Assembly (NCBI GenBank): GCA_950295325.1
Contig: OX485804.1
Coordinates: 42,024,429-42,088,428 of the forward strand
DNA: 64,000 nucleotides
DNA from: Polytrichum commune
Lineage: Eukaryota > Streptophyta > Polytrichopsida > Polytrichales > Polytrichaceae
Direction: 5' to 3'
Shown here: positions 8,494 to 57,237 of the stretch, in pieces
Position numbering within the stretch: position 1 is the first letter of the stretch
How the letters are laid out: the number at the start of each line of letters is the position of its first letter
Program-made: the position numbers and the translations under genes
The notes under the pieces: model-generated
What the model saw: only the letters and a program-made list of their open reading frames with translations
Databases searched by the model: none
Told to the model about the DNA's origin: nothing

Positions 8494-11400
8494 CTATAAT
8501 TTATCTTCATTGTAATCTGGCTCTTCCTCTCTTTCTTGCATTGCTACATGAACGTCCTCAGCTTCTAGTACTGTGCATCCTTCTAGCACAGGTGCACGAG
8601 GTTGCACATCTTCGTTTAAAATATTAGATCTCAATCCACGGTAGTCTTCATCTCTGCCTAGAACTAAACTGAGTGGCTCAGGTCTCCTCTCGGATGTAGA
8701 TGCCACTCTTGCACCTCGAGCTTCTTTCCTCAGCATAACTTTCCATTCGGGATTCTCTACATCGTCCACAAAAAAAGACTTGTTGCACATGGAGGGGAAA
8801 TGCAAAGGAGTCTGTTGAATACAGGATGATACGATCGAATTTGATTAATGTGAAGCCGTAGTCGTCACGTTTCATTGTTGCTCCGACGCCCCGGAGGTTA
8901 GCTCTCACCCATGTGCAATACAAAACTATCAGCTCAAACTTTCCATAGTCTACCCCTATTATTTCTTCCACCCATCCTATGTATTCTAAATTTGTTGTGT
9001 GTACATTTCGTGAATTGTTGCTCGCACGACATGCTTACAAAAATGTAGTTGCCACACCACTATCACACGTATTCATGTTTGATTCTACGCTGCGAACCCT
9101 GATGTGGTTGCCGTACGCATACATAGACTTGTAGGATTTGGCGTTCCTTGAAGGTGGCATTAGCAATGCTTGAACATCCATGGATACATCAATCCCTTGG
9201 TTGATGTCATCTTGCACTACAACAGGAAACCAGGTTGTGAAGGCCTCCTCTTGCATGTTGTTTGGGTACTCCAATCTCCTACCCCGGTGTTGACGTCGCA
9301 TGTCTTCCTTTGACCTCTCCCTTCGGGTCATTTCTGCAGTGTGTCGTCTACACCACACACCCATTTTTTGGTGTCATTATTTACTTGGATTACCAAGACA
9401 CTATAACAGAGCTTCAAAAATGCAATGACTGAAATTAGTCATCCAAATAACAATGATGACTCCATTTAGTTTTGTGAAGCATATCTAGTATTGTTGTTAG
9501 TCACACTATGGATGCTTATGACTATGACTACTCAACAATGTAGTCACAGGAGCAACAACACATAGTACGTGGTTTTACTCTCTGTAAACTTGCAATGGCT
9601 CCGCATTGTTCAACACAAATTCATGTATCCAAAGACGTAGTTCGTCTGGCAACAATCGATGCCGTCCATTTCCTTCTATGACCTCGTTATTCATTGCAGG
9701 TTCTTCTTTGTCGTCCCACACACGACGCTCACTTTCACAACATTGTTGCATATATTCAATAAAAAATCCCATTGCTTCATCCATGATGTAGCCTTGTGCC
9801 ATAGAGCCCTCAGGATTGCTTCGAAGACGCACATATCCTTTCAGAGTTTTCAGGTACCGTTCCATTGGGTACATCCACCGGGTGTGCACTGGTCCGCAAA
9901 TGTCTAACTGTTGCACCAAGTGAATAGGCAAGTGAGACATGACATCAAAGAATGTTGGTGGTAAGACCCTTTCCAATATACACATAGTAACGGCTGTCTC
10001 ATTGAACAAATCAGTCATGCTTGAAGGATCCACCGACTTCACGCACAAACGGGCAAAGACTCGGCATATCCGTATAATGGCAATTCGGACATCCTTTGGT
10101 AAGAGCGTTCGTAAACACAATGGCAAGATTTGTTGCATTAGAATGTGGTAGTCATGACTCTTCATTCCTCGTAACTCTCCATCTTTGTGATTCTTTTAGA
10201 CAGTTGGCCCACGTAATTGCTAAGAGTCTTCAATCCACAAATGATGTTTGTAAACACAACATTCTTTGTTCTTGATAGAATATACGGAGCTCTTGGTATG
10301 AACAAGGTTCCCCTTGCACTGCCAGGAACTGCGTGCAATTCTGGCCTAATGTTTGCTTCCGCTAGATCCATCCGTATTTTGAGGTTATTCTTTAAATCCT
10401 AAATTGTCTTCATGATGTTCTCACATAAGTTTTTTTCACAGTGCATTGCATCGAGCACATGCCTTATTGTAAGAGACTGCATACAAACAGTGGCTCCCAT
10501 TAGTGGAATTATATTTGTACTCTTAGTCATCATACAGTCACTATTATATTAGCATTGACAATGTGTAGTCAATCATATTTGACTATAGTCAAGTTTGCAT
10601 GGATGTCACTAGAAGTTGACTACCGGTAGTCCTCCAAACCAATTTTTGAAGCTTTGAGTTATTTTTTGACTATTGTTAGTTTTATTTTAAGTCATGAGGG
10701 TATGACAATGGGTTTGGAACTAAACACTCACCTGCCAATATGGAAGTGCAAATAATGCAGACAGTCTTTTCACGCATGTGTCATGTATTGAATCGTTTAA
10801 CCCCCCTGGTCTGTTTCGTGGGGAGTCAGCCAACCAATTTTCTCTCCTCATCGCATAACGGACTATGTCACGGCCACTTAGCTGTCTTGGTGGTGGACAG
10901 GTCTCAGTTGATCCATCAAATGCTCTCTGCAATCTTCGATATGGATGGGTTCGGTTCAAGAAACGACGATGCCCTAAATATACATTATTCGTTAACGCTG
11001 CAGAACGTCGGGTTGTTACACTAGGACCACATTCGGTGCACTATCTGTACCCCTTTGTCACTTGCCCTGACACTAAGCCATATGTCGGGAAGTCGTGGAT
11101 GCACCACATGAGGATGGCCTTCAACGTGAAACTCCTATTCACACTCTCTGCAGATGCATCTACTGCATCAATGCCTTCCCAAAGTTGCTGCAATTCTTCA
11201 ATCAATGGAGCAAGGTACACGTCCACATTTTCAGATGTGACACTCTCTTTCCCAGGAATGATGAGGGCCAACATTAAGAAAAACCGCTTTGTCACCAACC
11301 ATGGTGGCAGATTGTAGTTCAGTAGTACAACTGGCCAAGTGGAATGACTTAGGGATTGGTTTGAGAATGGATTGACACCGTCTAGAGCAAGTCCTAGTCG

Positions 11401-12477
11401 TATGTTCCTTTCCTCCAACGCAAACCCTGGATATACAGAGTCAATGTGTTTCCACGCCTTTGAGTTAGGAATGCATTCCACGTTGCCATTACAGTTCTTC
11501 CGTTCGATATGCCACTTATTTAATTTTGCGAGAAATGTACATCGATACATCCTTCGTAGCCGTGGTATGAGTGGAAAATGCCGCAGAACTTTCATTGGTG
11601 TCATGCTTGACTCGGATTTGTACCTCAATTGTCCACATTTTGGACAATTCATTGCGCCTTCTAGCTCCTTTCGGAATAAACAACACCCATTTATACAAGC
11701 ATGTATTGAGACAAATGATAATCCGAGTTGCCTTAGATACTTACGAGCTTCATAGTAAGATTTTGGAAGAGTGTTTTTGATAGGTAATAGCTCCGACAGC
11801 AACTTCAACAATTCTGTAGCGCATGCATTGGAGACTCCAAAGACAGCAAAGCAATTTAAAAGGAGAATGACCGCAACTACTCAGCTTGTTTTGCTGCCCT
11901 CATGCAGTGGGACTGCAGATTCTTCTAGTAGATCCATTCCTTCCTCAACCATAAATTCCCGTTCATCTTCAAGTATGGTATCCTCCTGGCCATCATTGTT
12001 GTTGTTCTCAAACCGACCAAAACACTTTGTTATCATCCGCTGCACTTCAAACTCGCCTTCATCATTCTCATGCTCACTTGCGCCGCTGCTTTCCTCGTGT
12101 TCGGCGTCCATTGTGCTTGGAAGAACGTCATCAGTATTTGGTGTTCTTACTTGGCCAGTAAGACCAGTCTGTAGTCACAACATTGACATATGTGACTATG
12201 GATAGTCAAATACTGACATTATAGGGTTAGGGTTTAGATGCACTAATTCCAACCACATTTTAGGAATACAAACACGTACCAGTATAGACCTATGGAATTG
12301 TGGATCGCGCTTGTAATGCCTTAGATGTTTGCGAATGGTTTCTCTTGATAGAACCCTCCCACCCATGCAGTTTTTACATGGACATGGATATGATGACAGG
12401 AACATTCCATTTGCCTCCTTCTCCTCTAGGTCCCACAGTTGTAGGTGCATGAGTTCGTCTCTTGAATTCTTGTCCAT
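8494..12477 (-). pseudogene. TNP2-type CACTA transposase gene, mildly decayed
   Basis: In minus-strand order: a transposase-associated domain at 12477-12280 (YPCPCKNCMGG, then IRKHLRHYKRD); an acidic linker at 12168-11884; the TNP2 core at 11813-10732 (MNCPKCGQLRYKSES, FPLIPRLRRMYR, LGLALDGVNPFSNQS, STWPVVLLNYNLPPW, GHRRFL); a continuation at 10480-10162; a DUF4218 domain at 10165-9575 (MKSHDYHILMQQ, PPTFFDVMSHLPIHLV, GPVHTRWMYPMERYLKTLK); and a DUF4216 region from 9364 to 8494 (RGVGATMKRDDYGFTLIKF). This is the standard domain order of CACTA transposases. Breaks seen: an in-frame TAG near 11041, another near 10399, a frame change between 10200 and 10160 that might instead be an intron, and a frame change at a T7 tract near 8770. 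This copy is probably inactive. Confidence 0.9.
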
Positions 12478-22416: not shown

Positions 22417-25400
22417 ATGATGGCCACAATGCGCATTGCGCAATTGCAACGGGCATGGCGGGCGACGTCCTGCTTAGAGCGCCTCTTGTGCTCCACACCT
22501 GCTGCCTGTGGCGCCCATGCGGCCCTCGAACTCTCGCAACCCTGGGGTAAGGCTCGTTCACATTGTTTTATTTAATAAAGTTTAAAATATGACTGGGAGA
22601 ATGTGTTGGTTGGTTGGATGCATTCAATCTCGAAGAGCCGAGGGGTAGATTGCATTGTCTCGGAATTGAAGAATTGCGAAAATGGGCAGGCATCATGGGT
22701 GTTCTTCATGTACATATCCCCCTTAAAGCCTAAAGCCTAAAACTTTGCGGGCCACTTTTGACAGCGAGTGATAGTTTGGATTCCAGCATTCACCTAAAGG
22801 TAGAAAGAAATTGCTGATTATGTAAAAGGACTTCCTCAAATATTTATTCTCGAAGACCTGAGGGTTAGATTGCATTGTCTCGAATCTGAAGAGAATGTAG
22901 AAAGCGGCAGGGATTATGGGTGTTCTTCATGTACATATGCCTCTTAAACCCTAAACCTTTGCGTACCATTTTTGCCAGTGAGAGATTTATTGGGTGGAGC
23001 ATTCGCCTAAATTAGAAAGATATTTCTAATTATGTAAATGACTCCCTCAATATTCCAGCCCTCGCTAGGTGTAAGTGAGGGATTTAGATTCAATTTCCAC
23101 AATTTCCACAATCCCCTGAATTGAAGAGAATTTAAAGAGCTACACATGCCCTTAAAACCCTATACCCAAAACCTTTGCATGCCAACTTTGACAGCGAGTG
23201 ATTGTTTGGATTCCAGCATTTCACCTAGGAAGAAATTGCTGATTTTGTAAAAGGACTTCCTTCAAACTCCCGCGCTGGGTGCAAGTCAGGGTTTTAGACT
23301 GAATTTCCACAATTTCCACAATTGCCGGAATCGCAGAGAATTTAGAGAGCTACTATGTGGCTGGCGTCCTGGCCTTGCCTTTGGGCAGGTCGAATGTGAA
23401 TGTTCTCGACTATTCCAATTCTGTGCAGAGATGTCGCATGAGGAGGAAGCATGTGCGTGGTAAAGGAACAGATTGATTGGGTTGACAGTTGTGAATTGGG
23501 AAATGTTGAGTGTTCTTCCTGTATATATGCCCCTTAAATCCTAAACTTTTGCAGCCCTAAACCTTTGCAGGCCAACTTTGACTGCAAGTGAGTGGGTTCC
23601 AGCATTCACCTAGAAAGAAATTGCTGATTATATAAAAGGACTAAAATTTAGATTGCAGCCGACTATAATATGGCCAACATCCTGGCCTTTGGGCAGGTCG
23701 AATGTGAAGGTTTCTGACGGATTGATCGGGTTGCCAGTTGTGAATTGGGAAAGGATGAGTGTTTTTAATGTAAGCATGCCCCTTAAACCCTGAGCCCTAA
23801 ACCCCTGCAGGCCAACTTTGACTGTGAGTGATTGTTTGGGTTCCAGTATTTCACCTAGATAGAAATGGCTAATTACATGAAAGGACTCCCTCAAAATTCC
23901 CCTGCATGGCATAAGCGAGGGGTTTAGACTGAATTGCCACAATTGCCACAACTGCCCAACTCGAAGATAATTTCGAGAGCTACACATGCCCTTAAACCCT
24001 ACATTGCAAACCCTTGCAGGCCAACTTTGACAGCGAATGTTTGTTTGGGTTCCAGTATTTCATTTAGTAATTATTGCTGATTATATAAAAGCACTCCTCA
24101 ATATTCCCTTGCTGGGTACATGTGAGGGTTTTAGACTGAATTTCCACAAATTGCGGCAATCGCCTGAATTGAAGAGAGTTTTGAGAGCTACTAGAGTTAT
24201 CCTTTAACTTAACAGTATTTTTGGTTGGGAGTTTTTGCATGCAAGACTTTCCATGTTTGGTAAGTTTTCAGTGCATGCTTGGAGAAAGTGTGGAGGTTTG
24301 AACGAAAATCCAATCTATATTGGCTCTATTAGGGTCAAACTCATGTTGGCATGCCAAGAGGTACTTAAATGGGTTTGCTCTCCATGCAATGAACTGAAAT
24401 AGGTTGCTCTCCATGCAAATTCAAAGACTACCTTTGAGCATGCACCACAAGTGGGAAGGAATTGTTGATTTTGTGTGCAAAGCAACCAATGGAAAATCAG
24501 AGGGGACCGTTCATGCACCTTAAACCCTAAATCCTACACCTTACCCTTTGCAGGCCACCTTTGACAGTGAGAGTGATTGTTTGGGTTCCAGCATTCACCT
24601 AGGAAGAAATTGCTTATTATATGAAAGGACGCCTTCAAAGTTTCCTCGGGTGACATTGGCTGGTCAAACTAAGTGCCAACCCAAATTCATAGCTGGGAGA
24701 ATGTAGCTACATTTCTACAATCGCCTGAAGTTTTGGCTTTGATTTTGTGGAGGGGTTACCCTGACTGATCAAACTAACTCCCAACTCAAATTCACAGCTG
24801 GGAGATTTTGTTCACAGGCTAGAGGTCAGTGCTACCTGTATTCTGATGAATATATCTACTAGATGAAAGCATCTTCATCTCTTTGTAAAACCCAATTATT
24901 TTCATCGAAGTGCAAAATCTGCTTGCACACTTTGGATTGGTTGTATATGGTTCATTATTTTTAATAAGACTGATACATTCGACTCTCATCTAATTGTGCA
25001 GAAACTGGTCCTAGTCAAGAATCATCAAGCATGAGGTACAATGACAAGGCAAGGTATGAGCGAGTGAGGTCAGTGATGAAACCGAAAGCTGCTGACCTCA
25101 TACAGGACCCGAGATTAGGGAAATTATTCAAGCTTTTGGAGCAAAAGAAGTTTGCGGAGCTGCAGGCGGCTCATGAGGAGTTGCGAGAAGCTCATTTTGA
25201 TGTGAAGCAAATGGATGTGTATCAGTATTCAAAGCTGATGACGCAGTGTGTTACACATTTGGGGCCGGAGACAGCTCTCCCAGTTTTTGAGCTGATGGTG
25301 CAGGTTGGAGTGGTTCCGAATGTGGTGCCGTACACGATTGTGATTCGAGCGCTCATGGAGCTTGCGGTAGGTTTGTTTGTTTGGAACCTTGTCGCTTGAA

Positions 25401-28400
25401 TTAACTCATATTTAAGTAACTGGGACACATTTTCAAAATTTGGACTGTTTGGTTAATTCATTTCCTATGGGCTGTTGACACACTTACAATAGAGTAATTT
25501 TGCATGCAATAACTGGATGTGACTTTTTGTTTGGAGTTGGTCCCTTATGATTTTCCATTGGTTGTTTTGCATACAACACCAGTAATTTCTTTCAACTTGT
25601 GGTGCATGCTTGTAGGTAGTGTTTGAATTTGAATGAGAAGCAACCTCTTTTGGTGCATTAGGGTCCACATTCATATTAGCACACCTTGGCATGCCAAAAT
25701 GGAATTGTCCTTCAATGGATCAATAAATAATATTCCTCATTCAAACCTCGAAGGATGCACCAAAAACTTACCAAACCTGGAGGGTGTTGGAAGCATAACA
25801 ACCAACTCTTGACCAAAGTCATTTCAAGTTAGGGGATTACTCTCAATACAATCGATATGTGAATCTTTCAGTGTTTATTTGAATGTTATAATATTGAATA
25901 TGTTATTTTAAATTTCTATTACTCGTTGATGAGAAATTTATAGAATAAATAAATGAATGAATAAATAATGACAACTCAATAAATAATAATAAACATAATA
26001 AATATTCTGTTTTCTAATCTTACCATAATCTTATCTGCATGTGCAAATTTTGTCAAAGGATCCTACTATGTACCTCAAGCATGTTGTAATGGACTAAGTG
26101 TTGGTCCAGTTTTACTTAAATATGAGTTTGAATGCATCTCTTACACCCGTTAGATGACTTTTGCTATCCTAGAACCATCATTCACACCATATGTCTTGTT
26201 GTTGTTGCTTTTTGTTGGATCCTTGCTTGAAACATGATTGTAGGACAATGAAAGGTACCATTGGCTTGGTTTAAAGGAGGTGGCAAAAAGGGAATCATAT
26301 GCATCGAAAGCCGTGGAACTCTTACGGGAGATGCGTAGCAAGGGGGTTAAGCCCAATGAACTGACCTACAAACCCATCATGGCGTGGCTTCCAGCGAAAG
26401 GACGTGAAGCCCAGTTCCAGGAATTCAAAGTGTTAATGGAAGAAGATGGCGTCGCATTCAGTGGAGTGTTTAAATACTATGAGATTCGTTTATCGTTAAT
26501 GGTGGGTGATGTCAAGAAGGCTGAAAGACTTTACCTGGAAGCCAAGGATGAAGATAATACTATAGCTACTTCTTTGGATGGTGAGAATGGTGTTAACTAA
26601 CCGGTCTCCGAGCTTGTGACACTAAATCCATGATGCCATCTTGGTTGTTAGAATATCTCTTACCCCAATGGTACATTTTGTTGGAAGTTGGTTTCTTATG
26701 ATCTTGCAGGCATGCCAAATTGAGTTTGACCCTGATTGAACCGATATAGAATGTTCCTTTGTCCAAACCTCTACACTATCTCCAAGCATGCACAGAAAGC
26801 TTACCTAATATTGAAGGTGTTGTAAGCAAAGCAATTAATTCCAGACCACAAGTCATGGTGAGGTATAGGATAAGTCTATTGATAGATAGATTTGCAAAAG
26901 AAATTTGCATGTTTTCTAGGTTGATTCTAAAAGTGGTGGGATAAAGGAGTTGGTTGAAAGTTGATCACTGATGGGGTATGGCCGATGTTTGGGGCAGGCT
27001 ATTTCCTGTGTATGTTTTCAAAAAGTGACAGAGTTGAAGAACTGATGGACTTGCTACCCAAAGTGCTGCCTTACACCAACTCAGATGGGACTACTGCAAC
27101 AGCATTTCAGTGCCTTGGCAAACATGGAAAACATGATACGGCTCTTCAATGCTTCTCAATTCTTAAAAAAAAGGGTATGTGCCTGCAAGAATGATCCATT
27201 GACTTGTGAATATAATATTATGATCTTTTCACACTGTTGTTGATCATAACGAGAGTCTTTGTAAATGTTTTTATGCCTAAATCCAGTTCTGGTTTTGTTT
27301 TTGTTGAAGGTGTCACCAGTGAAACTTGAGTGTTATGCTTAAAGTTGCTGCAGCTGAGTCTTTAGCTGGTCAAGGCCTTAAATAATGTGTTGTTGGTTGA
27401 GAATTGGTTGGTGACATCACCAAGTTTATGCCCTGCTTCTTACATAGATGATATATTTGCATCTGTTTTGTATCTTGACTGCTTCAATTTGTATGTCAGT
27501 TTCTACTTGCTAAAAATGGAACTCGACATCCACTTTCTGATAGTGCATTATCCTTTTGCTCTTGTGTCTGATCACAAACCATAATTAAGATTGCGGTTGA
27601 GTATTTTAATTTAATGATATTCCAGCTCACCAGCATGCAATAAGGTTTCTCGCAGGTTGTTCTGAAATTGGTAATTGTGGTTCTACATGTCTCTGAATTG
27701 AGTCATGTATCTCACATAAATATGTTCTATTATGGACCCTGAAGTAAACAAGCTGTAGGTTGTCACTTGATCTCCATGGGTGGCTTCAATATCGAATTTT
27801 CTTGTTCTTTTTAATTATGACAAGGCACACAAAAAAGAAAAGCTGCTTCTCTAATCCTTTGTGTGCCTTTGATCCTTCATAATATCCTTTACTTCCTTTG
27901 TATCTTGGTGTTCCTCATGGTAAATGTGGACCCTATTTACTAGCTACTCTTTATTTTGACTTGTTAGCTTTTGATTATGGAGATGTTTTAACAGCTCTCA
28001 GATTGTTGTGCATGTATCAATTACAGGAGGGAGTCAAGTCCAGCTGAGTCATGCTTTCACCGGTTACGTTTTAGGGTACTCAAAAGCTAATAAGGTATAT
28101 GCCCTTTGTGGCTGTTTATTGTTGAACATGTTTGTGTATTATAATGGTGTATCATTGTCATCATAAAGTTATAATGACAAGCCTTCCGGTATAAACAATG
28201 TGGTTTAGACTTGTCTGCAAGCTGAAAACATCTCTCATTTTCCAACTTGGTGTTAAGAAAATTGTGCATGAGCAATTTAGTGTGAAATTTTAGATCACCA
28301 AGTATTTATAGATTGACCAGGCTGACATCATGTTTGAGTCTTTTGTATTAGAAGCATCTAGTGTTTGTCTATTTTCTTCTCATATATTTTCAGAATAGTG

Positions 28401-38530: not shown

Positions 38531-41500
38531 CTAATTGGGGCGTCCACAACGTTCACACGCACTTGGCTTTCTTTGTGGGAGGGGTTGGCCAGAATGTAAT
38601 TTCTTCATCCTGGGAATGTCCACCTCGAAGACATCTTGCAATGCCTTGCTTGCCTCTGCAAGTTGTTCTTGCCTGCAAGTTACAAATATAAAGATGAGAA
38701 TCTTGAAGAAACTTGCAAGGACATAAACATTAGTCTATTTTGAATGAGCAATCAACCACAATAGTATATGAATTCATTAATCTCGGGGACGACCAAGATA
38801 ATATAGAAATAGGGTTAAACTACTCATACCCATGGACATGAATCTAGTTGCCACAAATGAAATCGAGTACAAGTAGAGGGAACTCACTTAATTATAAGAG
38901 GGGGTGAGAGTCGAATTATGTTGCCATGAGTAGGCTTGGCTAAAATTCCTCTGTCCTTTAAGCCGATGCATACATCATATGCTGTTACATGTCCCAAACC
39001 TGATGTGCAAAGCTCCACAGCATTTAAAAGTCCACGACCTCGAACTTCCTTGATCATGTGAGGATATGACTCTTGCACAGCACGCAGTTGCTGCCTGAAA
39101 TCCTCTCCCATCTTATCAGCCCTGACAACACAAATCATGTTAGTAGGAAGTCACCAGTTGTCTACTTTAACTTCATTTGGTCCTGTACAGATGTAGAGCA
39201 ACAAGAATTTTTGACAGATTTGTTTATTATAACCATTTGTACCTTTCACAAAGGTTTTCTTCTGTGACAACTTCCAGAGCAGCAATTCCAACAGCACTCG
39301 CCAATGGATTCCCTCCGAAGGTACTGCAACAACGCATAGGAACCAACAGATTGTTATGGGCAGTATGTAATATCAACTTCCGTAGGTAGCAATCGAGAGA
39401 AACAAGTTTGAACTGTAGATTGATCATCTTGACATCTTTAGGGAGATGAGGGTGGAGTCTTGATGTCACACCTGCCATGCTCCCCTGCTTTAATGCACAA
39501 CATGATGTCCTTATCTGCAAGCACAGCGCTGACAGGCAGCACTCCAGCTCCAAGTGCCTTTCCCAGAATCTATACCACCCAGAGAAAAAAGCAACTGTCA
39601 CTTCCCTTGAATAGCTTGTCTCTTCCTATGGACACCCTTTCCATCATACGTTCCTCATCCTATCTGTATGGTTTTTTGGTGACTAATTTGCTAGGTAGCC
39701 AACAAATGCTTCCAATTTCAGAAAAGCACAAAGTGTTGTTGAAGGTTTAGGGACATCCCATAAGTGTGTCTCATCTAGATAGCAGATGAGAACTATCACC
39801 AAAATTAAGTCTAATATTCTGTAAGGCCATGTTAGATCTATAATTATCATATTAAAAAAGATGAAACAACAGACGCGCTCCAATGCACAAGTGAATGTGT
39901 TTGAGATGTGCATGCCGGACAGGCCAGAACTAACCACAACATCAGGTCGTATATCCTCCCAATCACATGCCAGAAGACGCCCAGTGCGCGCTATTCCTGT
40001 TTGAATCTCATCAGCTATCATCAGTACATTATGCTTTGTGCACAGCTCCCTAACTGTCTTCAAATATCCATCAGGAGGCAGTATTACCTGTAAAGGTTTC
40101 GAAGTCAGCATATTCCTTAATGTCAGCAGCTCCTGTTCTACATACACCAAGCTATAGCCTATTTTTATGCTACACTTTCAGTTGACTTGAAAGTTTATTC
40201 ATCCACCATACTCACACCATCCTCTATGAGCATTAAACACTAAGACCATGAAACCACTACGCACTTTAGAATCAAGACATACTCAAGATCATGCTACATA
40301 AATAGGATGTAGGAGCTTCTCTGATTTCAGGACTGATAAGAGTGCTGAAGTGAAGCATATTGAGCACAATATAAAGGAGAGCAAATGTGAAATGCTTACC
40401 CCAGCCTCCCCCTGAATAGGCTCAAACAAAAACGCAGCCACTTTATCCCCATGCTCTGTAAATGTAGATCAGGACCATACATGAATACTCAGCACTGACA
40501 GCTCTTGAATGGATGCTAAGGCACATGAGTCCAATTGACATATATTGCCTCCAGACAAATAACAGGCCCCAACATCAATTCTACTGGATGCCCAAATTCT
40601 CTGAAAGAATCTAACATTCAACAAAGAAGAAAATTGAGTGGCAGGTAATGTGCAGCATACAACCAGCAGCACTGACCTTTGAGAAGTATAGCAAGAGCAT
40701 TGGCATCACCAAAGTCGACCTTCGCATGACCACCAACTGCTGGTCCAAAATCGCGGGTTGCCTCACTATCACAACTCATGGAGATTGCAGCCATAGTTCG
40801 GCCATGGAAACAACCACAACATGAGATTATAATAGCCTGGAATACATGGTAAGCCCAGACTTGCTTAGAAATCAATTTTGAAGAATTTATAATATTGATT
40901 CATGTAAATGAGAAAGGAAATTTATGATATTATACCAGAGCCATGTTAGTCAATTTTGATATGACTAAAATCTTCTGTCCACATCTTTACCTTGAAGATT
41001 GAAGAGTAGGAAAAGTTACCTCATCTTTCGGAATGCCTTTCTTAGTGTAGCCCCATTTGCGGGCCAGTTTGATTGCTGTCTCTACACCCTCTGCACCAGT
41101 GTTCATTGGGAGCATCATATCATACCCAAACATTGATGTCAAGGTCCTTGCAAAGTCTGGAAACTTGTCATTATGAAATGCACGTGAGCTGAGAGTGAGA
41201 CGCTGTGCTTGCTCCACAAGTGCATTGATGATTTTCTGATTACCATGTCCCTGTCATTCCACCATACAAAATTTTGATATTAGCAGAGATGTCTCAAAAA
41301 TCACTCATTTTTTAGATTTTGTCAATACCCTGTACAAACACTACACACACTTGAACCCAATGTAATTGAACATTTTGATATCATTGGAGATCTTTGGGCA
41401 GATTTACAGGATGAACCTTTTCAATTTCTTACTAAATGTACAACGCCCTTGACTCCTTCCTACTTTCCTCTTGAAATGAATCCAATAATTAGTATTGAGA

Positions 41501-42416
41501 CATGTGCAGATAAACTGTTCCCAAGGTGCTTTCGGCAAATCAGAGAGCACGATGTCAAAAAAAGGAAGTACCTGGTTGACAGCAGAATATGCCGAAAGGA
41601 AATCCAAGTACTTGCGGCCTTCTGGATCCCAAACCTCCACATCTTTCGCTTTTGCAAAGACAACTGGAACGGGATGATAACTGTGACATTTACAGAATTG
41701 TTTTTATTAATACCTCGATGCTTTAAAACTAGCTCGGAAAGCGACACTCTATCCCGTAATGCACAGTGCTCTTTGTGCAGTTTTACAAGGCAGAACACTC
41801 CAAGCAGACATCCAATAGACATATATATACACAAAACATCAGATTGGATTATGAACATAATGACAACAGCAATGAGATAAATACACGGGTAAGGCCCAAA
41901 AATTCTCTAAATGGGCAAGCACCGAAAAGAGGAGCACAAAGAAACTCCTGATGGAAAATCCATGCGATTATCAAAATAGCATAGTCCCATGGTTGAATTT
42001 GAGGTCAATTTTGGGTGAAAACATTAACAACGAAAGTGGATGACTCTCGTTATTGTTGGAAAGGGCCAATGTCACGTCGCTAATAGGTACTACTACTTTA
42101 AGAACCAAGAGTAATTGGAAAGGAAAGCTTGAGACAAATCAAAAGGAATGTTCCGAACAGGATAATGAAGGTACGCCAGTCATCGACATAGGAAGGTAGT
42201 CACTCACTTGTGGGCGCTAAATTTGTGCTCTGCCTCGATGAGATTTGCCGAAGATGGCTCAGATGCTGGAAGATCAGAGGAATTTGCTCTGTGTGCGACT
42301 GTTTCTGTGCTGGCAGATAGATTGCGGGTTTGGAGGAAAAAGGAGGTGTTGACCCTGCAGCGCGAGGCAATCCCACGCAGGGCTGCCTTTTGTAACATCC
42401 GAGCTTTGGATGTCAT
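38531..42416 (-). CDS. OAT: Ornithine aminotransferase, mitochondrial, 10 exons
   Basis: Minus-strand exons: 42416-42208, 41680-41572, 41250-41020, 40836-40677, 40455-40400, 40087-39935, 39569-39472, 39323-39243, 39121-38888, 38672-38531. Phases are consistent and give 490 residues. This PLP enzyme converts L-ornithine plus 2-oxoglutarate to glutamate-5-semialdehyde plus glutamate in the mitochondrial matrix, linking arginine breakdown to proline and glutamate. The first 40 residues are Arg-rich with few acids, a targeting peptide. Family landmarks: [96 protein letters not shown] with the PLP lysine at about residue 310, [23 protein letters not shown] and a C-terminal CERCGRPN. The length is usual for plant OAT. 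The start is the first in-frame ATG. All catalytic motifs look intact. Confidence 0.97.
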
Positions 42417-52239: not shown

Positions 52240-52345
52240 TTGATATGAAAAAATACATTCATTATGACATTTGGTGTAGCACATTGGGTTACTTGAGATG
52301 ATAGTTTTGCGTTTTAGTATGCAAGGGGAAGATGTTATTGAGCAT
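52240..52345 (+). repeat. Dispersed repeat shared with 37270-37370
   Basis: Both segments contain 'cattatgacatttggtgtag'-like sequence followed by 'tacttgagatgatagtttt' and 'tatgcaag'. Part of an undefined repeat family. Confidence 0.5.
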
Positions 52346-54585
52346 ACTAATGTCAAATGTTATGTATTTACATTTTAGCATGCAAGAGGAAAATGTTCTT
52401 GAGCATACTAATGCCAAGTGTCATTTATGTGCACTCTTAGTCAACTTGTTGACCATTATGTAAGATAGGCGTACACCTCTTAACATTATTTGAACGTACC
52501 CATACCAAGATATTCGTAAGCACACTCGATTGCCAAGTGTCCTAGCTGACAATAATGGTGAAGTTGTTTGTCATTAGTGTAACCTAGCATATGCCTCAAA
52601 CTAGGGTAAGTGATACTATTACGCATGTGACATTAACATCATCAACGGTCTAGTCCGCTGCACTTTATCTACATCATGCAAAACATACATAATATGTGCT
52701 TGCATTAATTCTATACCCGACATGACTTCTTACTTTGCTAGGCCAAAATAATTTCCCACACTCACACCAAATATATGTGCATTTTGGCAATCTTCAGCAA
52801 GGGTAGGTGGGCACTAATGCAATTATTGGTCCAAAGTTCCAAAAGAGCCGGTTGTTGTCAAATGATTGGGGGATGGCTTGGGATATTAACTCATATGCAT
52901 GTGTGCAATGGGCTAGGCAACATGGGTTCAACACAACTCCATGCACCAAAATGCCACAGCACATCACACCACAGTTCCCCACTCTGATGTTCATGACTTG
53001 CGTACATACTTAGTGATCATGCCAAGTGATGTTACTAATATGTCCAATCTTGATTGGATACAAGGAGGCATATTAAGGTGGAAAAACTGAAAACATTAAA
53101 TTACCATTATTGGTGCACTAGATTAGGGGTAAAATGATTCTAAAATGGCTAATTGTAAAAGTGGTGGCCCGAAAAAGATACAGTGATAGGCATGATGTAG
53201 TGATTGACCTGATAGGTGCTACTAAGTTACACACCCCTTGTGATCACTTTTGTGTGCCATTGAGTTAATTGTCTTGTGTGCATTCAAATGCAAAGTAGGG
53301 TATTTTAATGCTCAAATTAGGGAGACTCTACTATTCAAATAGAGAGTTTGACATACTAGCCTCTTTGAAAAGATGTAACTAATTATTTACATGGAACAAA
53401 ATCAAAAAACAACTTGCATTCATTGTCATTTCATCTACTCCATCTCCAAAAAATATTGCACAAATTTCAAGCCACTCTTTCTAGCCGAACCAACTTATTT
53501 TCACCATTTTCCATATTTCTACCTTTCACTCTTACTTAGCGACAATGTCACGGTTTGACCACTACATTTGGTGATAGACATATGTCACCCTACCATAGGC
53601 TATATTAGACTCCTAATACATACTTCACCACTATCACAATTTGGTTCGGTGGGTGCCTACTACAGCCCATGGAAGGGCTCCTTGCATCCATTACCTAGTT
53701 CATAAAGATACATATATACACAATGTGGAAGAAGCTCAATGACATGTAGAGGTCAATGACCCAGAGCCATTTGCAAAGTGTAGTGAATATTATCCCTTGA
53801 GATGATATAGGAAACACACTTATGTCAATGTGTTTCTTGTAGGCTGACAGAATGATGTACACTTCACAATCTGTAATATCGACCTCCTTAAGGTCACTCA
53901 TCTTATATGTTGAAACCATAAGGACCGGATATTCTTGGTTTAAACCTCACTACTTGTTATCATGCTTCCCTTCCATATATCACAGGTTTTGACATTAAAA
54001 TAAACCACCAAAGAATTCAAACCACCTGCTCACACACATCATGTTGTCATCATTGTAATTATTGTCATTATTGCAATGTTAACTTTGTGTTATTCCACAA
54101 TGTCACATGCTACACTAATTCTCTGTTATCAGGCATCCATGTTAACACTACAAAACTCCTTAGTATCACATGCACTTTGGTTGCAACAAGTGTGATAATA
54201 CAGAGTTTAGGGTGTAGTGACAACGGCACATGTGTTCTTTTAATCTGCATTTGAATTTACTATGCAAACTGGCTGTTAATATTAATACATCCTCTGCATA
54301 AGGAGCATGTTTGCCGTTTAACACTCTCTGTACACCATGTAATGCCAATTTGAATGTCACTTCTTCAAATCCGTAATTGGTCAGAGCACTGCGCCAACAC
54401 CAGAGGTCTTTTGGCACATGTTCCATATGAAATATGAATAATAACTGTTGAGAATGCTTCCTGTCAAATGTGCTGAACATTTATCCACTTCAGTATCACG
54501 GAGACATTCAAGTACTGACTTCATAAGACCAGATAGACAAATTGCAAACTTGAGATATTCAGATTTGAAGGGTCAATTAAGGTAT

Positions 54586-55344: not shown

Positions 55345-57237
55345 CTACCCATCCAGTTGTGCAAGTCTGGTCTGCATTGATTCTGCCATTTGCAACTGTT
55401 CAAGTGACAAGTGCATGCCTGCTGTACCCAGTTTCAACAATCTCAACTTCTCTTGATCATATTCTAAGGCTGCCCTGCGACACGCACTCAAACTGCCTGC
55501 GACACCCATTTACAGTGCCAGATTTGAGTAACTCCACTCTACACCCTCATTGAGAATAAGGTCCACCAGTTTGTTATGCCTACTCTCAACTGGGAATATG
55601 ATATCAATCCACTCCACAATACATACATACATATAGCAAGCAAGCTCCTGCTTACTAAGGTTTCAACCTTTTTATGATGTTTCAATGGAGAATCGGGATG
55701 CCTTTTGGCAATGAGAAACAACAAGAGGCACATATCAAGCGTTACCACAGAGGTGCAGGAAGTTCAATCCACTCCCCACTATTACATACATATAGCAAGC
55801 AAGCTCCTGCTTACTAAGGTTTCAACCTTTTTATGATTTATATGTTTCAATGGAGAATCAGGATGCCTTCTGTGCATCTCATTCAGCAACAAGAAACAAC
55901 AAGAGGCACATATCAAGCATTACCACGGAGGTGCAGGAAGTTCAATCCACTCCCCACTATTACGTACATATAGCAAGCAAGCTCCTGCTGACTAAGATTT
56001 TGACCCTTTTATGATTAATATGCTTCAACGCAGAATAGGATGCCTTCTGTGCATCTCATTTGGGCAATGAACAACAACAACAACAACAACAACAACCAAG
56101 CGTTAACCACTGAGGTGCAGTAGGTTCAATCCACTCCCCACCACATATGTACATATAGGAAGCAAGCTCCTGCTTAGTATGAATTAGTATGTTTCAATGG
56201 AGAATAAGGATGCTTTCTGTGCATGTGATACAGCAATGTAGAACAACAAAAACACACAAACCTAGTATAACCACTGAGGTGCAGGAGGTTCGATCCATTC
56301 CCACCACATACATAGCAAGTAACCTCCTGCTGACTAAGGTTTTGACCCTTTTATGATTGATATGCTTCAATAAGGATGAATAACGATACTTTCTGTGCAT
56401 CTCATTCGGCAACAAAGAACAACAACAAAAATCACAAACCAAGCGGTTACCACTGAGGTGCAGGAGTTTCAATCCACTCCCACTACATACATACACATAG
56501 GAAGCAAGCTCCTGCTGACTTAGTTTTCGACCTTTTATGAATCAGAATGTTTCATTGGAGAATAAGGATGCCTTCTCTGGATCTCATTCGGCAATAAAGA
56601 ACAACAAGAATTAAAAACCGAGCGTTTACCACTGAGGTGCAGGAGGTTCAAGAACAAAGGCATGCTCCGCATCTCGGTGATGAAAGTGATGGCAGCCCAT
56701 ACGACTCGGTACTGGTCCCTGCTGCACCGTATCACGCATACACCTGTTCCTCCGTTCACATATTTCACTGCACCCATGGAGTCCACCCAAACAAAAACTA
56801 AGAAAACCGATGCTCTTGAGAAACAATGCTCTTTCACCTCGCTCGAGAAGCCAATCCTCTCCAAAAACCCTAATACGGTAACAACACCAAGGACGCATGA
56901 CTTCCGAGTTGCACGAGATTGTTTCATATGACCACAAAACCCTCAACAGCACAATCGACTGTGAACTGGTTTCTTGCGTAATGTTCTGGCTGTTCTTTAA
57001 GACATCATCATGGTTGGGAATTCTAATGAAAAGCGTGAAAAGCCTATGAAAGGAGGGAGTTCGTTTACCTTGGAGGGCAGGAAGGCTGGCTGCAAGGCCA
57101 TGTTCCCCGAAATTCCCAAGTAGGCTGTCGCGGATGGCATTGCTCAGGTCCTGTGGGCTTACACGAGCATCCGCCAACCTACGGCCTTGCGAGGCTACCA
57201 TCTCCATCACCAAGTACCTGTTCTTAAACAGAACCAT
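55345..57237 (-). CDS. POP5: RNase P/MRP protein subunit POP5, three exons
   Basis: Minus-strand exons 57237-57069, 56767-56630 and 55496-55345; phases agree and give 152 residues, the usual length. POP5 is a protein subunit of nuclear RNase P (tRNA 5' maturation) and RNase MRP (rRNA processing). Family landmarks: MVLFKNRYLVMEM at the start, LSNAIRDSLLGNFGEHGLA, VKYVNGGTGVCVIRCSRDQY, VVWAAITFITEM and LFLNLLHLSG, followed after the splice by SLSACRRAALEYDQEKL. The ATG at 57237 gives the conserved N-terminus; the frame is open further upstream without another ATG. Intron 2 (56629-55497) is almost filled by a tandem array built from the end of exon 2 and its donor site, so splice-site choice may be unusual. 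Confidence 0.95.
55580..56640 (-). repeat. Tandem array of the POP5 exon 2/intron 2 junction
   Basis: On the minus strand each unit carries the end of exon 2 (encoding LLHLSG), the donor 'gtaa' and about 150 bp of following intron. The junction motif, seen on the plus strand as 'ccactgaggtgcaggagg', lies at the true exon end near 56633 and again near 56454, 56275, 56111, 55926 and 55749, with spacing of about 165-185 bp. A diverged sixth unit may start near 55590. Other unit landmarks are 'agcaagctcctgct', 'tttatgat' and 'gcatctcattc'. The outer units are more diverged in the junction ('ccacagaggtgc'). Confidence 0.9.

Follow-up and report, generated by a model that had tools for sequence, protein, structure and literature searches.

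The window, a 64,000-nucleotide stretch of Polytrichum commune DNA, sits on a 70-Mb contig of an assembly of 408 Mb in 64 contigs. On its minus strand, three exons were joined into a gene encoding a 152-aa protein that matched PF01900 (Rpp14/Pop5; E 1.1e-28) as well as the POP5 chains of solved structures, namely 6ahr_E (E 1.1e-19) and 6agb_E (E 2e-8), which we take to be human and yeast POP5, respectively. The gene model was built from homology and GT/AG signals. It comprises the coding part of exon 1 (57069..57237, 169 bp), assigned from the joined translation with its PF01900 and POP5-chain matches; intron 1 (56768..57068, 301 bp, AAG/GTAAAC ... GTGCAG), used as the comparison intron; exon 2 (56630..56767, 138 bp), which ends in phase 1 within an LLHLSG motif; intron 2 (56629-55497, 1133 bp); and exon 3 with the stop codon (55345..55496, 152 bp). 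Exons 2 and 3 were also placed by alignment to the POP5 chains, and across their join the LLHLSG motif aligned with TLHVGG of 6ahr_E. Searching the assembly with either the protein or the Pfam model found a single POP5 locus. Elsewhere in the window were tnp2-type transposon pieces, presumably CACTA-like, on the minus strand at 9575-11811 (Transposase_21, E 1.3e-52; DUF4218, E 1.2e-34); two open stretches with pentatricopeptide repeats (PF13812/PF13041) on the plus strand at 25031-26597, with further exons likely downstream; a class-III aminotransferase gene on the minus strand at 38900-41700, which we take to resemble ornithine aminotransferase (one exon, the one tested, matched PF00202, and five introns were inferred); and about two copies of a 61-bp unit at 52312-52428 (85% matches by Tandem Repeats Finder). 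The pentatricopeptide-repeat stretches and the transposase with DUF4218 are in keeping with a plant genome.

Most of POP5 intron 2 was found to be a head-to-tail array of six homologous units of 164-184 bp each, and the whole array was contained in this one intron of the gene model. Tandem Repeats Finder reported it at 55717-56651 (period 178, 5.3 copies, 77% matches, 10% indels, score 933), and repeated 12-mers occupied 383 positions in the array compared with a mean of 0.18 and a maximum of 6 in 500 dinucleotide shuffles. All units lie on the minus strand. Dissection of the array showed that unit 1 (56474..56652, 179 bp) combines the final 22 bases of the exon and a flanking base with the GT at 56629 that the gene model takes as donor, and with the start of intron 2, so that it holds the end of exon 2 itself, and that the 22 exon-like bases, which read TTGAACCTCCTGCACCTCAGTG in unit 1, recur in every extra copy. 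Unit 2 (56295..56473, 179 bp) carries a decoy donor GT at 56450 (GTG/GTAACC, the slash marking the junction), unit 3 (56131..56294, 164 bp) one at 56271 (GTG/GTTATA) and unit 4 (55947..56130, 184 bp) one at 56107 (GTG/GTTAAC), the latter two having a shorter U1 core; a perfect 27-bp AAC/GTT microsatellite lies inside unit 4 (56070-56096, Tandem Repeats Finder). The decoy of unit 5 (55769..55946, 178 bp) is at 55923 (GTG/GTAATG) and that of unit 6 (55604..55768, 165 bp), which closes with a breakpoint TTGA, is at 55745 (GTG/GTAACG). The non-repeated 3' part of the intron (55497..55603, 107 bp) leads to the acceptor GTCGCAG.

A 16-base junction core matched six times within the POP5 gene with up to 4 mismatches, giving five extra copies. 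The first-pass annotation had named the gene POP5, described intron 2 as an array built from the exon 2/donor junction with at least five further copies, and seen in each unit a decoy GT after exon-like bases. The domain match, Tandem Repeats Finder and the unit dissection agree with it on all of these points: five further copies were present, the annotated positions lying 3-4 bases above the actual GTs, and the GT followed exon-like sequence in 6/6 units. Copies 2-6 total 870 bp, and intron 2 minus these copies would measure ∼263 bp, near the 301 bp of intron 1. Pairwise identity between units was 0.72-0.94. Because LLHLSG aligns with the human motif, the repeated bases derive from the exon, not the exon from them. 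Length variation of the array between individuals is plausible, making the locus a candidate for such variation.

The array was not found outside POP5 intron 2 when the 408-Mb assembly was searched with the whole array, a 121-base intron part of one unit and the 24-base junction, in a search that scores the best candidates only, so that strongly diverged copies could escape it. The 121-base query matched all six units. The 24-base junction gave seven matches with up to 3 mismatches, and a dispersed repeat was rejected as six of the seven were the units themselves and the seventh, elsewhere, had 3 mismatches. A known RNA element was likewise rejected, since Rfam returned no match at the gathering score within the window. 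As a background sample, we ran Tandem Repeats Finder on 23 10-kb stretches (230 kb) at chosen, spaced rather than random, positions on six contigs. Arrays of period at least 60 occurred at nine distinct places (six in 20 stretches plus three in 3); three of the nine exceeded 900 bp and one had at least five copies, which puts the POP5 array above the common size in copy number. Scaled from those three cases, arrays longer than 900 bp would number, as a rough figure, in the thousands genome-wide, and some of them would be expected to fall on splice junctions. Another long array of the same genome was seen at L027:6191-7368 (period 75, 15.7 copies).

The edges of the array bear on its origin. 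Its upstream edge in exon 2 reads GTTC-TTGA-ACC and its downstream edge in the intron reads GTGGA-TTGA-TATC. Since both ends share TTGA, a tandem duplication of the junction through microhomology is the probable start of the array, four bases of microhomology being weak evidence of mechanism. Units 5 and 6 formed the youngest pair, with a K2P distance of 0.059 compared with 0.165-0.355 for the remaining pairs, and they were joined in the unit tree with a support of 0.994; weaker groupings were units 2 and 4 (0.811) and units 1 and 3 (0.785). This tree fits a stepwise expansion, and the pairing of units 1/3 and 2/4 is compatible with one two-unit step, as judged from the unit sequences. Assuming that neutral sites in plants change at near 6e-9 per site per year, the array would be, very roughly, ∼15-30 million years old and its last step would date to near 5 million years ago, values that are indicative only.

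The strength of the six donors was assessed mainly by counting fixed-register matches to the 11-base U1 complement, because the free-register U1 duplex energies allowed any register. The first donor scored 5 of 11, and copies 2-6 scored 5, 5, 4, 6 and 6; the contiguous U1 core was 5 for the first donor and 5, 3, 3, 5 and 5 for the copies. A contiguous G/GTAA core was thus common to the gene model's donor and to three of the five copies (2, 5 and 6), and none of the six junction donors had a G at +5. The donor of POP5 intron 1 had a U1 score of 6, and in the nearby class-III aminotransferase gene the five inferred donors scored 7, 8, 7, 8 and 7, with the reservation that six junctions had been sought there, one of which was omitted (donor score 4; its join skips residues expected from relatives), and that alternative donors at two junctions (scores 2 and 6) were dropped for adding unexpected residues. 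These scores mark the first donor as weak and copies 2, 5 and 6 as its equals. The fixed-register count is crude, 8 of the 93 GTs of intron 2 scoring 7-8, above all junction donors, with cores of 3-4. Free-register duplex energies were -5.3 kcal/mol for the first donor and -5.0, -2.6, -2.6, -5.1 and -5.0 kcal/mol for copies 2-6, and they ranked the first donor 16th of the 146 GTs in the POP5 gene. Base composition was 0.53 G+C in exon 2 versus 0.41 in intron 2. Over 60 bases on either side, the G+C content changed from 0.52 to 0.40 across the first donor and from 0.45 to 0.45 across that of unit 6; units 2-5 keep the contrast, so composition alone does not set the first donor apart. The other obvious distinction of this donor would be the longer real exon that precedes it. 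Intron definition is described in PMC11420051 as the general mode of plant splice site recognition.

Conservation was compared across the columns of the six units. Mean pairwise identity was 0.90 in the 22 exon-like columns and 0.69 at donor positions +1 to +6, against 0.79 in the remaining columns, and for copies 2-6 alone the corresponding values were 0.89, 0.60 and 0.80. Conserved donor bases would be expected if the decoys had been kept for splicing; instead, only the GT was invariant among the donor bases of the six units. Six of 129 other 22-column windows were as conserved as the exon-like part, and the best four other windows listed all overlapped one block around AGCAGGAGCTTGCTTCC. 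As the units are related and another block is equally conserved, the conservation of the exon-like part is not decisive. Complementary 7-mers occur in the exon-like block (CTCCTGC) and in the most conserved of the other blocks (GCAGGAG); in unit 4 the first of these reads CTACTGC, which disrupts the pairing. The idea of a conserved hairpin that would hide the decoys was rejected, the five decoy regions folding with z = -0.25, -1.27, 0.31, 0.00 and -1.35 relative to shuffles.

Among the six junction donors, 56629 alone yielded the 152-aa protein, whose alignment to human and yeast POP5 continues across the join. The first-pass annotation had proposed that transcripts could gain segments in one-unit steps. 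A gain of useful segments was not supported, for every extension of exon 2 to a decoy met one shared in-frame stop, ∼31 codons beyond the first donor, and gave the same 133-aa product (5/5); with all five extensions truncated, no full alternative isoform was obtained via a downstream donor. Decoys 2-6 would add 179, 358, 522, 706 and 884 nt, and the stop would lie 84, 263, 427, 611 and 789 nt before the junction, respectively. With every stop at least 84 nt upstream, the 50-55-nt rule of nonsense-mediated decay (NMD) makes the decoy transcripts predicted NMD targets. We also enumerated cassettes running from any AG that lies up to 140 nt upstream of a decoy donor. Of 35 AG-to-donor combinations, three were open and in frame (81 nt before the unit 2 donor, and 33 nt before each of the unit 5 and unit 6 donors), a number within chance expectation.

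We consider the likely explanation of the locus to be intron growth that was near-neutral, the first donor (56629) being the one spliced (probability of about 0.72); here we infer the duplication mechanism, first-donor use in vivo, degradation and neutrality. A tandem duplication would have fused a TTGA located 22 bases ahead of the donor in exon 2 to the TTGA of intron 2, so that the exon tail and the donor were copied together with ∼155 bp of intron. The number would then have risen to six units by slippage or unequal exchange, one or two units at a time, the last two being the newest. Intron 2 would thereby have grown from ∼263 to 1133 bp with the protein unchanged, because the copies lie downstream of an intact first donor. 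POP5 would normally be spliced from 56629, with the five copied donors silent or used at a low level, and any transcripts from the copied donors would meet the early stop and then be degraded. In favor of this reading are the finding of the array in this intron alone among the best candidates of the searches, the TTGA at both ends, the single POP5 locus found, with 56629 as the one junction donor giving the full protein, the truncated product of all five decoys, the lower conservation of donor bases +1 to +6, the stepwise shape of the unit tree and the frequency of long-period arrays in the sampled stretches. Several observations count against it: fixed-register U1 matching does not favor the first donor, free-register energies put it only slightly ahead, and if the donors are equal the copies should see some use; repeat units of human IFI6 do act as donors; one of the nine sampled arrays reaches five copies; and, as weak evidence, conservation of the exon-like bases is above average.

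Some of these observations lend themselves to the alternative that the array is a splicing trap, in which the copied donors compete and divert a regulated share of POP5 into early-stop products, NMD setting the POP5 level. The match of decoys 2, 5 and 6 to the first donor in contiguous U1 pairing would allow such competition, all decoy products carry their stop 84-789 nt before an exon junction, the exon-like bases are relatively conserved, and by analogy the repeat units of IFI6, which act as donors, suggest that the copies may be used. A role as trap or regulator had also been raised in the first-pass annotation, and it gained no positive evidence here: donor bases past the GT vary, making positions +1 to +6 the less conserved part, the +5 G is missing, decoys 3 and 4 have a shorter core, and folding of the decoy regions is ordinary. 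Furthermore, the array was found in no other gene among the best candidates of the assembly searches, and the sign of selection is limited to the exon-like block while another block is equally conserved. We therefore regard a trap as unlikely. More of a long shot is a gene-private, length-tunable splicing rheostat, in which near-identical tandem donors compete for U1 and the unit number sets the decayed share of POP5; if true, the supply of RNase P/MRP would vary between individuals with the repeat number.

Other readings have less in their favor. Single units could serve as small cassette exons, spliced from an AG in one unit to the next donor, as in the 33-nt in-frame segments of units 5 and 6. 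The three open combinations (one of 81 nt and two of 33 nt) permit this, but three of 35 is unremarkable, the AGs of the 33-nt segments are preceded by purine- and AT-rich bases with no pyrimidine tract, and very short exons are difficult to splice in, so that cassette use appears very improbable. Scarcely credible, too, is an origin of the array as a fragment of some dispersed satellite or transposon inserted at the junction: the unit of about 178 bp resembles plant satellites in length, but the lack of any further copy in the assembly largely refutes such a source within the limits of the search, and the exon-like part is POP5's own conserved motif, which makes the exon the source. An artefact of the assembly, finally, has nothing direct to recommend it beyond the fact that one assembly was examined, and its probability is close to negligible; the units differ by 6-28% and in length, which makes false expansion of identical units unlikely.

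The closest known case is the minisatellite of human IFI6 (6-16), whose repeats are short and lengthen a coding exon. Two of its downstream repeat units serve as donors and give rise to three mRNAs, according to the part of PMC4526556 that cites Turri et al. 1995. Like the IFI6 repeat, the POP5 array is a tandem repeat with candidate splice donors in its downstream units (a GT follows exon-like bases in 6/6 units, judged from sequence only), whereas the POP5 units are longer (164-184 bp) and mostly intron, and each extension of exon 2 hits the same early stop. Since IFI6 units are used as donors, use of the POP5 copies should not be dismissed. Tandem duplications that create introns (ATP2A1; 24-bp AGGT repeats in fission yeast), and a potato case in which an existing intron-exon structure was copied as well, are described in PMC4974935. 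They resemble the POP5 array in that exon/intron material with splice signals was tandemly duplicated, pointing to a related origin, but in those cases, as presented there, a new intron arose, whereas the POP5 gene model implies the growth of an intron already there and not the birth of another. The CeRep25B intronic minisatellites of C. elegans, linked to alternative splicing in PMC4039745, share with POP5 the possible effect of intronic tandem repeats on splicing; that repeat is 24 bp and is described from many places, whereas the POP5 array was found in one intron, is longer and derives from its host gene's own junction. Among the literature matches listed, no title or opening of an abstract describes an array in a POP5 intron.

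The locus offers a natural test of how the plant spliceosome chooses among tandem donors of near-equal U1 pairing in an essential gene. Use of the first donor alone would mean that the choice depends on context and not on the sequence of the donor; use of the copies would mean that the number of repeats could adjust the gene's output.
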